Assembly (NCBI GenBank): GCA_030710605.1
Contig: CP092872.1
Location: 11,033,691 to 11,097,690 of the forward strand
Direction of reading: 5' to 3'
Length of the DNA: 64,000 nt
DNA from: Cordylochernes scorpioides
Lineage: Eukaryota > Arthropoda > Arachnida > Pseudoscorpiones > Chernetidae
Positions 3,251 to 48,204 of this stretch are shown piece by piece. The position numbers were made by a program, and so were the translations under genes. The notes beneath the pieces are model-generated. The model did not search any database. It saw nothing but the letters and a program-made list of their open reading frames with translations, and was not told where the DNA came from. Within the stretch, counting starts at the first letter, position 1; each line of letters opens with the position of its first letter.

Positions 3251-4670
3251 CACTGCGTGACATTGAAAATGGAACACCAAGAAATAGTGGCCAGAAAGTG
3301 ATGAAACTCGGCAGACAGAGAGAGACAGGGACGAACAATAAGTGATCTTTATTTTAAAAAAATAGTCATAATACATAGCGAGAACGGCGTCGGCTTAGTA
3401 GCAAGTAGGACCACCGCGGACGGCGATGCACGCAGCAACACGTCTAGGTAGAGAGTCAATCAGAGTACGGATGGCGTTCTGAGGGATGGCTCTCCATTCC
3501 CTCTCAACCATTTGCCACAGTTCGTCTTCTGAACGCGGCTGTGGCAAGGCATGCAAACGGCGTCCAATGATGTCCCAGACGTGCTCGAATGGTGAGAGAT
3601 CAGGAGAGTACGGTGGCCAGGGAAGCATCTGTACATCTTGCAGAGCTTGTTGGCTAATGCGAGCAGTGTGCGGTCGGGCGTTATCCTGCTGATAAAGGTA
3701 TTTGGGTACCCCCTGAAGGTAGGGGAGTGTCACCGGTCGCAGCACATCATCAACGTATCGTTGGGCCGTCATAGTGCCCTGAATACGAAGTAAAGGTGAC
3801 CTGGAATCATACGCGATTGCGCCCCAAACCATGATTCCACGTTGTCGCACGGTGGGGCGTTCCACAATTGCTGCCGGATTGGACCTTTCTCCACGTCGAC
3901 GCCACACGCGTACACGGCGACTATCACTGGACAAGCAGAAACGCGACTCATCTGAGAACACGACCCTGTGCCATTCCGCCATCCACGTCGATCTAGCCCG
4001 GCACCATTCCAAACGTTGGCGCCTATTCGGTGGGGTTCAATGGCAGTCTTCTTAACGGACGGCATGAGTGCAAGCCATTAGCAACCAATCGACCGGAAAT
4101 GGTTCTGGTCGAGATGGAATGATCTAGGGTGTCTTGCACATGTTGCAGGATGGCGGTACAAGTGGCTTGTGGGGCCGCCACTGCTTGTCGAAGGATACGC
4201 CGATCCACACGTGCTGACGTCACTCTGGTTGCACCGACATTCCTATAAATTGCCACATTTCCTTGTTCCAACCATCTTCTCCACAGTCGGTGCACCGTGG
4301 ACGCACCAAGGTGTGTATCAGCTGCGATTTGACGTATGGACCAACCTGCCCTTTTCAGTCCGATCACCATGCCCCTCGTAAAAGCGTCTGTCTGCTTGAA
4401 CTGCCTCCGTTTACGATGACCTGGCATTCTCTGTTATTACACGTGTCTTTTGACACAAGAACAAAATTTCTACAATGATTTTCCTTGAAGAAATAACGAC
4501 ACGAATACTGTCCTTTCTGCAAGTTCCTTCCCTTATATCTTATTCCATGTGCGCACGAGAGCTGCGCATTTCACATCATTTGCATAACTCGGTTAGGCGC
4601 GTCTACCCTGAAATTTGCATAATTTTCTGGCCACTATTTCTTGGTGTTCCATTTTCAATGTCACGCAGTG
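3251..4670 (-). mobile_element. Tc1/mariner-type DNA transposon with TIRs
   Basis: Both ends carry the same inverted repeat of about 47 bp beginning CACTGCGTGACATTG. The element is flanked by TA on each side (3249-3250 and 4671-4672), the standard Tc1/mariner target duplication. Length is 1420 bp. It holds one transposase reading on the minus strand. GC content is higher than the surroundings, which suggests recent arrival. Confidence 0.92.
3395..4427 (-). pseudogene. Tc1-type transposase with one frameshift
   Basis: DDE transposase that would cut and paste the surrounding element. The N-terminal part (4427-4023) has paired helix-turn-helix DNA-binding segments, with RGMVIGLKRAGWSIRQIA and STVHRLWRRW. 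The C-terminal part (from about 4035 to 3395) has the catalytic motifs FSDESRF, QQDNARPHTA and SPFEHVWD, so all three acidic residues are present. I count 32 residues between the second D and the E. One extra base near 4036-4037 shifts the frame and makes an early stop. Otherwise the reading frame is open to the natural end. Combined length of about 340 residues is normal for the family. Close relatives are common in spider genomes (from memory, not searched). Confidence 0.9.
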
Positions 4671-4672
4671 TA

Positions 4673-5145
4673 TATCTTAGTAATATTCTAAATAATTCAT
4701 CGCGCCTTACTCTGCAGCCATTTGTTAAATTATCAAAATATATTTTTTGATTTATTCTAACCTCCAATAAACTTAATTCCTCCAGGAAATACCATAAAGG
4801 TTTTGACACAATCAATAAGAAATCAAGGGTTTGATTTTTTCATTACATTTATTTTATACCTCGATCTTTCGGGCTAACATTACCTTCAACAAGGAGATAC
4901 AGAAGTATAACTTGTGAATCCTACTTCAGAAGTAGTAATTCTAGATCTCCGTGTTAAAGGACACATTAGCCTGAAAACTCGAGATATAAAAGAAATAAGA
5001 AACCAAACCCTTGATTTCTTATTTTGTCAAAATTTGAAAAACAGGGAAGAATATTTATTATAAAGATTTTGTCTAACTGATCTCTCAGGACAGATAATTT
5101 CTACTCTAAGTTTTTCTAAAGGGTAAAAACTCATTCATTCAATGC
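4673..5145 (-). ncRNA. Spacer holding a decayed type E hammerhead (4855-4905)
   Basis: On the minus strand a GTATCTC/GAGGTAT stem I flanks CTTGTTGA, a GGTAATGTTAGCCC stem II region, GAAA (4870-4867) and GATC. The core has one extra base relative to CUGUUGA, and stem III is not the usual AGCU palindrome. It is a type E relative, probably inactive. The rest of the interval is unremarkable. Confidence 0.35.
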
Positions 5146-5248
5146 AGACAATTATCAAAATTCGAAACTATTTTAAAGGTGTAAGATTCTTTTTGAAATT
5201 AAACAATTTCTACTGCCCTTACTGCAATGGAAAAATTAAAGGGAGAGC

Positions 5249-5308
5249 CTGGCTCATCAGTGGTGAACCCTCCCAGCGGTTTCGCCAGTTTAATCTACCA
5301 TACCGCTG
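5249..5308 (-). ncRNA. Type H reversed-order hammerhead candidate
   Basis: Minus strand, 5' to 3'. The cleavage strand is CAGCGGT-A (5308-5301) followed by TGGT (5300-5297). A linker follows, then CTGGC (5288-5284), GAAA (5283-5280) and CCGCTG. A second linker precedes ACCA (5264-5261), CTGATGA (5260-5254) and GCCAG (5253-5249). Stem III CAGCGGT/ACCGCTG, stem I TGGT/ACCA and stem II GCCAG/CTGGC are all perfect, and every core base matches the hammerhead consensus. The three strands occur in the opposite cyclic order to all natural hammerheads I know, so the three helices cross one another. Expected cleavage is between A5301 and T5300. The fold is inference from pairing. Confidence 0.65.
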
Positions 5309-5346
5309 TTATATTGCATTTTTGGAACTTTCTTTTATAGATTAAA

Positions 5347-5386
5347 CTGGCGAAACCGCTGGGAGGGTTCACCACTGATGAGCCAG
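5347..5386 (+). ncRNA. Type H partial motif (no cleavage strand)
   Basis: CTGGC-GAAA (5347-5355) and CTGATGA-GCCAG (5375-5386) are intact and pair through stem II. The upstream GCGGTATGGT strand is absent because this arm abuts the foldback centre. Confidence 0.6.
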
Positions 5387-5596
5387 GCCCTCCCTTTAAT
5401 TTTTCCATTGCAGTAAGGGCAATAGAAATTGCTTAATTTCAAAAAGAATCTTACGCCTTTAAAATAGTTTCTAATTTTGATAACAGATGGCGCGCTAGTG
5501 CATCGTAGACAATTATGTTTATTATGAATATAGAGGTTTCTCCTGTCCGGCATACATAGTTCTTAGAAATACTTCGGCTGTAAATGTTTTTTTTTA

Positions 5597-9786: not shown

Positions 9787-9828
9787 TCCACGAACGCGTT
9801 TCGCGCTGTTGGCGCTCGTCAGCGTGGA
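9787..9828 (-). ncRNA. Type A hammerhead ribozyme
   Basis: Minus strand has stem I TCCACG/CGTGGA, CTGACGA, GCGC-CAACA-GCGC, GAAA, the palindrome ACGCGT and a GTT cleavage triplet. All core bases are consensus. Confidence 0.8.
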
Positions 9829-10134: not shown

Positions 10135-10176
10135 TCCACGAACGCGTTTCGCGCTGTTGGCGCTCGTCAGCGTGGA
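10135..10176 (-). ncRNA. Type A hammerhead ribozyme
   Basis: Identical in core and stems to the copy at 9787-9828, also on the minus strand. Cleavage is expected at the GTT triplet before CGTGGA. Confidence 0.8.
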
Positions 10177-10369: not shown

Positions 10370-10411
10370 TCCACGCTGACGAGCGCCAACAGCGCGAAAC
10401 GCGTTTGTGGA
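10370..10411 (+). ncRNA. Type A hammerhead ribozyme, G-U in stem I
   Basis: TCCACG (10370-10375), CTGACGA (10376-10382), GCGC-CAACA-GCGC, GAAA (10396-10399), CGCGTT, then TGTGGA. Stem I retains pairing through one G-U wobble beside the cleavage site. Confidence 0.75.
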
Positions 10412-15559: not shown

Positions 15560-15910
15560 ATATGAAAAAACAATAGAAAAAAATAAAAGATAAGTGGGTC
15601 AGGTGTTGATATTAAAAATAAAGAAGGCATCTCCTGACCACGAGCACATGTGCTTTTTAGATGGCAGAGCGCCATCTAGTGGAGCAAAAATAATCGCAGT
15701 GGTTACAGCCTTCTCCACGCTGACGAGCGCCAACAGCGCGAAACGCGTTCGTGGGTGGCTTTTCTTGATTTATCAATAAATTGGGTTGGCCAAATATCTC
15801 GGAGCAAGTTAAATAAACGTTTAGTTTATTTTTGCTCCACTAGATGGCGCTCTGCCATCTAAAAAGCACATGTGCTCGTGGTCAGGAGATGCCTTCTTTA
15901 TTTTTAATAT
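15560..15910. mobile_element. Type A foldback
   Basis: Inverted arms begin and end with GGCATCTCCTGACCACGAGC-type sequence. The left arm is truncated after GATGGCAGAGCGCCATC..GGAGC, and the right arm holds a complete hammerhead. Confidence 0.75.
15714..15755 (+). ncRNA. Type A hammerhead ribozyme
   Basis: TCCACG (15714-15719), CTGACGA (15720-15726), GCGC-CAACA-GCGC, GAAA, CGCGTT, then CGTGGG (15750-15755). Five stem I pairs remain. Core is consensus. Confidence 0.78.
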
Positions 15911-23099: not shown

Positions 23100-23225
23100 A
23101 CATTCAAATGCAATATTACAGCGGTATGGTAGACTAAACTGTCGAAACCGCTAGGAGGGTTTGCCAATGATGAGCCAGGCCTTCCCATCATTTTTATAAT
23201 TGCAGTAAAGGCAGTACAAAATTGT
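23100..23225 (+). ncRNA. Type H reversed-order hammerhead, C3 mutated
   Basis: AGCGGT-A (23120-23126), TGGT, then CTGTC (23139-23143), GAAA (23144-23147), CCGCT, GCCA (23163-23166), ATGATGA (23167-23173) and GCCAG. Stem III keeps six pairs, stem I TGG/CCA holds, and stem II has one mismatch. C3 is A, so it is probably dead, but the strand order matches the copies at 5249 and 29431. Confidence 0.55.
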
Positions 23226-23519: not shown

Positions 23520-23950
23520 TAACTTCCTACTTCCCTTACTGCGATGTAAAATCATTGGAAGTGCCTGAATCATCAGTAATGAGCTCTCCCAGTGGTTTCG
23601 CCAGTTTTTAAACAAACCTACGCTTCATATATAGAATATTGTTTTGTGGGAGATTTTGCTTATATACCACATACTGGAGAATCTTGGTTATGGGGTTTAA
23701 CCAGACTATGGACTTGTATATTTTGGGAATAGTAAAATTATATATAAATGTGTTTCATTATATTTATTTTAACAAATATGAACCTATAAATTATAATATT
23801 AAGATTTATATAGAATTATAAAAATCATTTTAGAATATATATTTAAAAAATTAATCAAAACTGACCTTTTACTGCATTGAGAATGAAATTGAAAATGCTG
23901 GACCTAGCTCATTAGTCATACCTCTCCCAGCGGTTTCGCCAGTTTAATTT
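23520..23950 (-). mobile_element. Two decayed type H arms
   Basis: Minus-strand arms near 23535-23612 (CTGGCGAAACCACTGGGAG, then CTGATGATTCAG) and 23885-23945 (CTGGCGAAACCGCTGGGAG, then CTAATGAGCTAG). The cleavage strand is diverged in the first and missing in the second. Confidence 0.55.
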
Positions 23951-29430: not shown

Positions 29431-29489
29431 AGCGGTCTGGTGGATTAAATTGGCGAAACCGCTGGGAGGGTTCACCACTGATGAGCCAA
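29431..29489 (+). ncRNA. Type H reversed-order hammerhead candidate, second intact copy
   Basis: AGCGGT (29431-29436), C17, then TGGTG (29438-29442), a linker, TTGGC (29450-29454), GAAA (29455-29458), CCGCT, a linker, CACCA (29473-29477), CTGATGA (29478-29484) and GCCAA (29485-29489). Stem III 6 bp, stem I 5 bp and stem II 5 bp are all perfect. Compared with 5249-5308, stem II changed from GCCAG/CTGGC to GCCAA/TTGGC on both strands, the cleavage triplet from GTA to GTC, and stem I gained a pair. These changes keep the fold. Confidence 0.65.
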
Positions 29490-31454: not shown

Positions 31455-31830
31455 TGATATTAAAAATAAGAAAGGCATTTCCTGACCGTTTACATGAGCA
31501 TTTAAGATACCAGAGCGCCATCTAGTGGAAAAAAAATAAACTAAACGTTTATTTAAATTGTTCCGTGAAATATATTTAGTCAACCCAATTTCTTGATAAA
31601 TAAAAAAAGAACCAACTATCTACGCGTTTTAGACTGCACCACGCTGATGAGGGAAAACAGCCCGAAACGCGTACGTGGTTAATTTTACTTGATTTATTAA
31701 GAAACTGAGTTGGTAAAATATCATGGAACAAGTTAAATCAACGTTTGTTTTATTTTTGTTCCACTAGATGACGCTCTACAATTTAAAATTCTCATGTGAA
31801 CGGTCAAAATAAGCCTTTTTTGTTTATAAC
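31455..31830. mobile_element. Type A foldback, diverged
   Basis: Arms run from GGCATTTCCTGACCG and GAGCGCCATCTAGTGG to TCTTGATAAAT. The left arm's ribozyme is deleted down to CTACGCGTTTTAGACTG. The right arm keeps a full hammerhead. Confidence 0.65.
31638..31679 (+). ncRNA. Type A hammerhead ribozyme, CUGAUGA variant
   Basis: ACCACG (31638-31643) pairs with CGTGGT (31674-31679). CTGATGA is 31644-31650, stem II is GGG/CCC, GAAA follows, then the palindrome ACGCGT and the cleavage triplet GTA (31671-31673). Relative to other type A copies, N7, the stem II sequence, the outer stem I pair and H17 all differ while the fold is kept. Confidence 0.8.
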
Positions 31831-40873: not shown

Positions 40874-40930
40874 TTGGCTCATCAGTAGTGAACCCTCTCA
40901 GCGGTTTCGCCAAATTAATCTCTAGACCGT
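40874..40930 (-). ncRNA. Type H reversed-order hammerhead candidate, third copy
   Basis: Minus strand has ACGGT (40930-40926), C17, TAGAG (40924-40920), TTGGC (40913-40909), GAAA (40908-40905), CCGCT, then CACTA (40890-40886), CTGATGA (40885-40879) and GCCAA. Stem II is GCCAA/TTGGC. Stem I is TAG/CTA plus an outer G-C around an A-A mismatch, compared with TGG/CCA elsewhere, a two-sided change. Stem III keeps four pairs (CGGT/ACCG). The core is fully conserved. Confidence 0.6.
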
Positions 40931-41739: not shown

Positions 41740-41870
41740 ACAAACATACTACTATCCTTACTGCAATGGAAATTTATTTGAGGGTTTGGCTCATCAGTGG
41801 GAATCCAACCTAAATGTTTGGCCAAGTTAATCCACCACATTGCTTTTTAAAGCTCTAATACTGTATTGAA
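41740..41870 (-). ncRNA. Decayed type H motif with rebuilt stem III
   Basis: Minus strand has CTTGGC, CAAA (for GAAA), then CTGATGA and GCCAA. Stem III strands changed from GCGGT/ACCGC to AATGT/ACATT, so pairing is kept though the GAAA box is lost. TGG/CCA of stem I is present. Confidence 0.4.
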
Positions 41871-46084: not shown

Positions 46085-46165
46085 ATAAAATGGTAGATCA
46101 AACTCTTGCGAAACCGCTGTGAGGGTTCACCACTGATGAGCCAGGCCATCCCAATATATTTTCCT
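46085..46165 (+). ncRNA. Decayed type H motif
   Basis: TGGTAG, CTTGC, GAAACCGCTG, TTCACCA, CTGATGA and GCCAG are present, so strands b and a and the stem I strand survive. The GCGGTA part of the cleavage strand is replaced by AAAA. Confidence 0.5.
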
Positions 46166-47177: not shown

Positions 47178-47640
47178 TAGATGGAAATTTTCCAGGGGAA
47201 GATATTTATATATTAAGATCAAGGTCGCCTCTCCCGTCAAAATAGACGTCATAGCTAGATGGTGTCTAGTTATGGCGTCTATTTTGACTGGAGAGGCGAC
47301 CTTTATCTTAATAGATGAATATCCTCCCGGCAAAATTTCCACCTATATTTTGGCAATAGATTTGGCCCAGCCACTTTACCAGCTAAACACCTCTTTGGCA
47401 GATTGTCAAGATTCCATTAGATCCTGTGTGGATCTCATGGAATAAAGTCCGCCCTAGACTGACGAGGGCCATTAGCCCGAAACCATGGTCTCTAGGTGGA
47501 CGCTTCTCAGTTTGCCAAAGCTGGTGTTGTGGCTTTGATACTGGCCCGAGGCCGCTAGTTTGCGGCGACGATCGATGGCGTCTAGTTCTGACGTCTATTT
47601 TGACGGGAGAGGCGACCTTTGTCTTTATAGATATATGCTC
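47178..47640. mobile_element. Type B element pair with intact ribozyme
   Basis: A small foldback (47178-47355; GGTCGCCTCTCCCGTCAAAA arms) is followed by the remainder of a type B unit with a hammerhead and a right arm ending GGGAGAGGCGACCTTTGTC. The left CGCCGCAAACTAGCGG arm of the second unit is missing. Confidence 0.65.
47447..47501 (+). ncRNA. Type B hammerhead ribozyme, best copy
   Basis: GTCC (47447-47450), CCTAGA (47453-47458), CTGACGA (47459-47465), GGGC-CATTA-GCCC (47466-47478), GAAA (47479-47482), CCATGGTC (47483-47490), TCTAGG (47491-47496), GGAC. Stem I is six pairs plus a four-pair extension after an internal loop, as expected for natural type I hammerheads with loop contacts. 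Stem III ACC/GGT closes two bases or pairs as an 8-bp dimer. Cleavage is expected after C47490. Confidence 0.85.
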
Positions 47641-48204
47641 AAGTTGCATATGCTGGCATATATGTAAAGAGAGGTTATAGAACCATCATTCCGCATTTAA
47701 AATATTCAAATAAACGATTTATGCGTTTAAGGTAATATTTATCAAAAATGTTGTATCAGACGAAGAGGCCGCTTTCGCTCGGGACCAAGTGAATATTTGC
47801 CCAAACAATATTGTGTTAGCCGAAATATATATTTACTATCCATTATTATACGCAGTAACAATAGTAGTGATGTGTGGTTAGCATTGTTGACTTTGCTTAG
47901 AAATTTTAAAGAAACTGATTCCAAGAATTTTAACCAAACATTATATTTATTGATTTACAAGAGAGAGAACAAAATATAAAAGAAACTTATAGTAAACAAA
48001 GGAATTTTTCTTCTAACGGCTAGCACCTATTTACTTGTAATATTACATACATACTCTGTAGGAACAATTAATTAATTAAATCTAATATATATATACAACA
48101 AATATAATGATACCAAAATAATAAAGCTCGAATAACATATGGCGAATAACTTTACTATTGATATTTAAACCGTTGATAAAACATACAAAAATAATATTGT
48201 GATA
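47641..48204. other. AT-rich spacer
   Basis: Nothing firm. A CAGACGAAGAGGCC..GTGAAT string near 47757 was considered and rejected as a ribozyme. Confidence 0.4.

Follow-up and report, generated by a model that had tools for sequence, protein, structure and literature searches.

We have found that the minus strand of a locus in the pseudoscorpion Cordylochernes scorpioides carries the complete core of a hammerhead ribozyme, with its three strands in a rare order. The locus lies in a 64,000-nt stretch of the genome (contig CP092872.1, positions 11,033,691 to 11,097,690), hereafter the window, whose numbering we use unless another locus is named. From 5308 to 5249 the minus strand reads stem III-GUA-stem I, then stem II-GAAA-stem III, then stem I-CUGAUGA-stem II; direct reading finds no core mismatch and confirms the order NUH, GAAA, CUGANGA reported in an earlier note on this DNA. 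The three blocks are S (CAGCGGU-A-UGGU), G (CUGGC-GAAA-CCGCUG) and C (ACCA-CUGAUGA-GCCAG), and the core nucleotides, CUGAUGA, GAAA and GUA or, in other copies, GUC, are those expected of hammerheads. Judged by its sequence, this motif is very probably a type-SGC hammerhead ribozyme, in which blocks S, G and C follow one another 5' to 3' and stems I to III cross and are joined by a fourth helix, serving as the processing signal of a small non-autonomous retroelement of about 371 nt.

All parts of the fold lie on the minus strand. The 5' strand of stem III (CAGCGGU, block S) is at 5302-5308, with its partner at 5280-5274, and by analogy with the type-SGC core the predicted cleavage site falls between A5301, the H of GUA, and U5300, in agreement with the position given in the earlier note. 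Stem I pairs UGGU (5297-5300) with ACCA (5261-5264), its second pair being G-C here and A-U in a subfamily that we call C below, and an 8-nt linker (AGAUUAAA, 5289-5296) leads from it to stem II, where CUGGC (5284-5288) pairs with GCCAG (5249-5253) and the outer pair is C-G here and U-A in subfamilies B and C. The GAAA of block G (5280-5283) consists of GAA at 5283-5281 and a last A that pairs with U5302, the 3' strand of stem III (ACCGCUG) occupies 5274-5280, and the CUGAUGA of block C lies at 5254-5260. Helix IV, which joins stems I and II from outside the core, pairs GGGAGGG (5268-5274) with CUCUCCC (5241-5247), including one G-U; it begins directly at the end of a 6-bp stem III, with no spacer, and closes one base past stem II. 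The stems of 7, 4 and 5 pairs described in the earlier note are indeed present, although the seventh pair of stem III, C5308-G5274, competes with the first pair of helix IV, to which that last G is common; counted with helix IV, stem III has 6 pairs, stem I 4, stem II 5 and helix IV 7, making 22. Helix IV, the mobile-element setting and a palindrome that would compete with the fold all go beyond what that note had recorded.

The note had also supposed that all known hammerheads have one cyclic order. This does not hold, since a 2023 paper described and tested the same S-G-C order under the name of type SGC (the HRIMA-1 motif and its variants; Eckert et al. 2023, PMC10085705), for which in vitro cleavage and compensatory mutants are described. 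The window motif shares with the published type the S-G-C order, the core, the crossing of stems I-III and an additional helix that falls between stem III and the end of stem II; by sequence and alignments our helix IV matches the stem marked with a circled 'I' in that paper, and its spacing from stem III is 0 nt here and 0-44 nt there. Of the proposed choice between a triple-crossing pseudoknot and a strand-swapped dimer, the three mutually crossing helices stand, whereas a dimer is unnecessary because published type-SGC RNAs of 79-81 nt are reported to cleave alone. The pistol-like pseudoknot hammerhead (Zhan et al. 2024, PMC11300833) is similar in that it, too, is described as combining a hammerhead core with a pseudoknot.

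We scanned 264 kb of real DNA, made up of the window and 20 arbitrary 10-kb stretches of the genome, for the full core in all six block orders, with 60 dinucleotide-shuffled windows (3.84 Mb, about 15 times the real sequence) as a control. With stems of at least 4 pairs the real DNA held five S-G-C cores and three in the C-G-S order of type I, and the other four orders were absent; the shuffled DNA held no S-G-C core and one each of G-C-S, C-G-S and S-C-G, which bears out the expectation that the motif was unlikely to arise by chance. Easing stem I to 3 pairs gave eight S-G-C, three C-G-S and one G-C-S match in real DNA, against none, one and four, respectively, plus five S-C-G, in shuffled DNA. 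When all stems were eased to 3 pairs, the real counts were 14 for C-G-S, eight for S-G-C and one each for C-S-G, G-S-C, G-C-S and S-C-G, and the shuffled counts 9 for C-G-S, 17 for S-C-G, 20 for G-C-S, 6 for C-S-G, 8 for G-S-C and 5 for S-G-C. The S-G-C matches are at window 5251-5304 (minus), 29434-29487 (plus) and 40876-40928 (minus) and at five places in the 200 kb of arbitrary stretches. Rfam found no hammerhead family in window 5050-5550 even at E up to 10; the microRNA precursors that it matched there did not reach their gathering scores and are due to the palindrome, and at gathering thresholds it reported only two tRNAs in the whole window. Exact-pattern scans of collections of viral contigs and genome contigs gave no match.

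The motif belongs to an abundant repeat. A nhmmer search with a 181-nt region gave 12 matches at E < 0.01 in the window, and a profile of the ribozyme region (78 positions) gave 27 at E <= 0.01 in the 264 kb, 10 of them in the window and 17 in the arbitrary stretches, 9 of the 20 stretches having at least one. Extrapolation suggests, roughly, 2 x 10^5 copies in 2.62 Gb; since the core and all stems are kept in 5 of the 17 matches from arbitrary stretches, some tens of thousands of copies, again a rough figure, would be intact. The copies fall into subfamilies. Subfamily A, which includes the window copy and the tandem units, has GUA, stem I UGGU/ACCA, stem II CUGGC/GCCAG and helix IV GGGAGGG/CCCUCCC, and, counting that of the window, at least 19 places in the genome match the query without a difference over 91 nt (40 of 271 candidates scored). 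Subfamily B (consensus of five copies) has GUC, stem II UUGGC/GCCAA and helix IV GGGAGGG/CCCUCCC, and is represented in the window by a second intact core at 29433-29488 (plus). Subfamily C (consensus of seven copies) has GUC, stem I UAG/CUA, stem II UUGGC/GCCAA and helix IV GAGAGGG/CCCUCUC; the third core of the window, at 40876-40928 (minus), is of this kind, with one A-C mismatch in outer stem III, and at least 40 places, the window's included, share 98-100% identity (40 of 1257 candidates scored). Decayed copies lie at 23111-23186 (plus; the C of CUGAUGA changed and one stem II pair broken), 46089-46152 (plus; the stem III strand and NUH lost and stem II disturbed), 23557-23634 (minus) and 41780-41847 (minus). 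We note that in one further copy (locus L039, 4408-4500) a 17-nt A-run is inserted in the linker between stems I and II, with the core and stems I-III intact.

Comparison of the copies reveals compensatory changes, as the earlier note had anticipated. Subfamilies A and C differ by eight substitutions and one gap in 67 nt, and none of the substitutions breaks a pair. Six of the eight are paired, giving three compensatory pairs, one each in stem I, stem II and helix IV; of the remaining two, one is in the linker and the other changes the H of NUH from A to C, as the NUH rule permits. The gap cuts stem I to 3 pairs. When eight substitutions were placed at random, at least three compensatory pairs arose in 11 of 200,000 trials. 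An alignment of 16 copies exceeds its shuffles in three of five measures, with 87.4% of cells paired against 85.1% after shuffling (2 of 500 shuffles as high), 13 cells changed on both sides against 5.5 (0 of 500) and a covariation score of 0.169 against 0.136 (7 of 500), although these are single copies, many of them decayed, and kinship alone can beat such shuffles without any structure. Structures slid along the same alignment paired 36-54% of cells. Between subfamilies the ribozyme is 86-94% identical, as against 47-71% over 120 columns of either flank.

Elsewhere in the genome the element occurs in head-to-tail units of 371, 372, 371, 368 and 371 nt (loci L009, L022, L023 and L027, the last of which also shows a spacing of 499), with a G+C content of 0.34-0.35, and the insertions vary in length, the shortest being part of a unit and the longest about 3 units (L009 581-1686). 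Of the 44 rows tabulated out of 66, 36 have their 3' end at positions 129-195 of the circular unit, and the 5' ends are spread from 1 to 369; for the more diverged copies, either end is that of the alignment and may stop short of the true one. In the set of 65 mapped copies, most from loci chosen by their likeness to the window copy, opposite-strand neighbours no more than 50 nt apart were head-to-head in 12 cases and tail-to-tail in none, with two same-strand pairs; within 300 nt there were 13 head-to-head, two tail-to-tail and five same-strand cases. Two mapped loci about 0.44 Mb apart (L016 and L017, contig C15, 67.19 and 66.75 Mb) have near-identical flanks round the element and are likely a segmental duplication.

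The window locus, one of the 12 head-to-head cases, is on its mapping to the unit a palindromic, truncated insertion of the element. The copy with the ribozyme (5152-5340, minus) covers unit positions 332 to 149, or 0.51 of the 371 nt, and its head-to-head twin (5338-5507, plus), which covers positions 4 to 173, has blocks G and C without block S; the two form a 146-nt inverted repeat (5152-5297 and 5338-5483, 97%), and a 10-nt direct repeat, AGACAATTAT, stands at both outer ends. Across 13 head-to-head loci such end duplications measure 10 nt in the window, 12 at L012, 10 (A+T only) at L010, 8 at L020 and 6-7 at five more, with none at four; outside the window locus, L012 and L020 they are short, A+T-rich or absent. 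Because it holds one ribozyme and half a unit, the window copy alone could not yield a unit, and this truncated, palindromic insertion is probably inactive itself.

The same genome also carries repeats with type I hammerheads. The canonical hammerheads of a first, retrozyme-like family (ACGCTGACGAG...) lie at 1288-1323, 10373-10408 and 15717-15752 (plus) and at 9790-9825 and 10138-10173 (minus), as well as at loci L035 and L037, with a variant at 31641-31676 (plus). Its tandem units are 348 and 351 nt long, and its neighbours within 50 nt are head-to-head in four cases and tail-to-tail in none. A 12-13-nt motif, AGATGGCGCTCT, is common to this family and the SGC unit; on the SGC unit it occupies 150-162, within the cluster of 3' ends, and on the type I unit it precedes the usual 3' ends by about 50 nt. 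Its sharing is suggestive only, because the BLAST E values are 0.03-0.09. The core scan also found a second type I family (AGACTGACGAGGGCC...), at window 47455-47494 (plus), L032 8377-8416 and L039 4064-4103. Its 3-bp stem III (ACC-AU-GGU) is palindromic, and hammerheads of this kind may cleave in dimeric form; Rfam did not match the window core at E up to 1 in a search of 47300-47700. Beside it, window 47200-47320 holds an inverted pair, AGGTCGCCTCTCCCGTCAAAATAGACG / CGTCTATTTTGACTGGAGAGGCGACC, possibly another head-to-head insertion. Elsewhere in the window, two overlapping frames at 3395-4427 (minus) encode what we take to be a Tc1/mariner-like transposase.

In its build the SGC element matches the metazoan non-LTR retrozymes (Cervera and de la Pena 2020, PMC7229834), which are described as head-to-tail repeats of 150-450 bp with low G+C and very high copy number in some genomes. 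Their target-site duplications, when present, are reported to be longer than 4 bp, and unit-length RNAs, both linear and circular, are described for them; the end duplications at the 13 loci above range from none to 12 nt. The published retrozymes carry type I hammerheads, however, whereas this one carries type SGC, and we therefore call it retrozyme-like rather than filing it among the retrozymes. Penelope-like elements resemble it in that they insert as tandems or partial tandems whose repeat contains a hammerhead (PMC11167929); they are autonomous, with a reverse transcriptase and a GIY-YIG endonuclease, whereas we read the SGC element as non-autonomous, and the hammerheads that they carry are classed as minimal variants of type I (PMC7229834).

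The sequence, the structure, the compensatory changes, the tandem units and the pattern of ends are observations, and from here we infer cleavage, circularisation and an enzyme. Head-to-tail loci would be transcribed and the RNA would cut itself at each GUA or GUC, giving unit RNAs with the predicted 5' start UGGUAGAUUAAA (the UGGU end), and a host ligase would close the 371-nt monomers into circles. A borrowed reverse transcriptase would then insert copies at new sites, starting preferentially in one region of a circular or tandem RNA and stopping at random, and the head-to-head palindromes could arise because reverse transcription is primed from both sides of the target break. The best candidate for the enzyme may be a Penelope-like element: that of Anolis, PAc, is reported to cleave and extend both target strands in vitro (PMC11167929), and so could give head-to-head twins. 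Should AGATGGCGC stand at the ends of Penelope-like reverse transcriptases, it would point to the enzyme. Pfam assigned reverse transcriptase, integrase, RNase H, endonuclease or transposase domains to seven of ten long frames from fetched genome DNA, MHC_II_beta to one and nothing to two, and found no GIY-YIG domain in these ten.

Several observations weigh against a functional type-SGC ribozyme in such an element. Stem I has only 4 bp, and 3 bp in subfamily C through the one-base gap, and the linker between stems I and II is 8 nt long, as against typically 3 in the sequences described in PMC10085705. In the best nested fold (-25.4 kcal/mol) stem III and a helix IV are retained but other pairings take the place of stems I and II, although nested folding cannot accommodate crossing stems, and the fold of the 371-nt circle does not stand out (z -0.09). 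If transcription ran through the window palindrome, the 146-nt twin arm would pair with the ribozyme. Each compensatory pair is a single change in a single lineage; among the core stems two-sided changes occur in stems I and II, stem III having one-sided changes only. Two measures on the 16-copy alignment do not rise above shuffles, namely pairs with two-sided change (5 against 3.6; 133 of 500 as high) and further pair types (18 against 17.9; 296 of 500). The two tail-to-tail neighbours within 300 nt also count on this side.

It is conceivable, if unlikely, that these are real type-SGC ribozymes by descent that now ride as passengers in an element spread by another route, with cleavage no longer needed. 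Many copies are decayed, with that proportion of 5 in 17 keeping core and stems, and one Penelope-like system is reported to have inserted in vitro without needing cleavage (PMC11167929). Against this reading, the subfamilies resemble one another more closely in the ribozyme than in its flanks, A and C each comprise many near-identical copies, and the differences fixed between A and C are compensatory.

We consider it very unlikely that the motif is a conserved block of an ordinary short interspersed element (SINE) or miniature inverted-repeat transposable element (MITE), such as an internal promoter or a binding site for a transposase or reverse transcriptase, with an incidental hammerhead match. 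The repeat is abundant and has other conserved boxes, for example CATTGCAGTAAGG, and the window locus is palindromic; yet a full core with three compensatory pairs in three helices is not expected of a DNA or promoter motif, shuffled DNA gave no S-G-C core with 4-pair stems, and the tandem layout is common to the type I hammerhead repeats of this genome. A further point against such an element is that GGTTCACCACT is what we take to be a poor box B. Just as improbable is a ribozyme formed only in multimers, with C, G and S of three successive tandem units making a nested classic hammerhead or two RNAs swapping strands: a run of about 3 units does exist at L009, and dimeric cleavage is reported for the small hammerheads of Penelope-like elements, but loops of about 350 nt would be needed when a single unit has S, G and C within 60 nt, helix IV connects parts of one unit, and the published type-SGC RNAs are described as cleaving in cis (PMC10085705). 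A chance origin is rejected by the absence of S-G-C cores with 4-pair stems from shuffled DNA. An artefact of the palindrome is rejected too, since the inverted repeat accounts for pairing between its arms and not for the pairing of S, G and C within one copy.

A type-SGC ribozyme in a retrozyme-like element thus joins an established ribozyme class to an established kind of element, a combination that we did not find in print among the literature matches listed; none of these describes type SGC from an animal or a retroelement, and in the open-access literature 'type-SGC' together with 'hammerhead ribozyme' returned PMC10085705 alone. The sequences described there came from metatranscriptomes, metagenomes and RefSeq, in contrast to the eukaryotic nuclear repeat found here, and the words 'insect', 'animal' and 'retrozyme' are absent from its main text, although its supplementary sequence lists may hold such sequences. 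This genome might be the first reported cellular host of the SGC fold, with tens of thousands of intact copies.

It is likely that a nuclear retrozyme-like lineage uses the non-circularly permuted type SGC instead of type I, beside type I elements of the same unit size that have the same head-to-head pattern and share a short motif, so that one RNA life cycle would run with two strand orders. Eckert et al. appear not to settle by what route non-circular permutations have evolved, or whether permuting the fold makes it inherently poorer (PMC10085705). With type I elements of the same build beside the SGC element, two strand orders seem to do the same job side by side, and about 2 x 10^5 SGC copies in several subfamilies would offer thousands of natural variants for covariation and mutational scans and a host in which circles can be sought. 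The Cordylochernes element may thus show where the rare SGC form makes its living, namely in an abundant repeat that is apparently spread through RNA.
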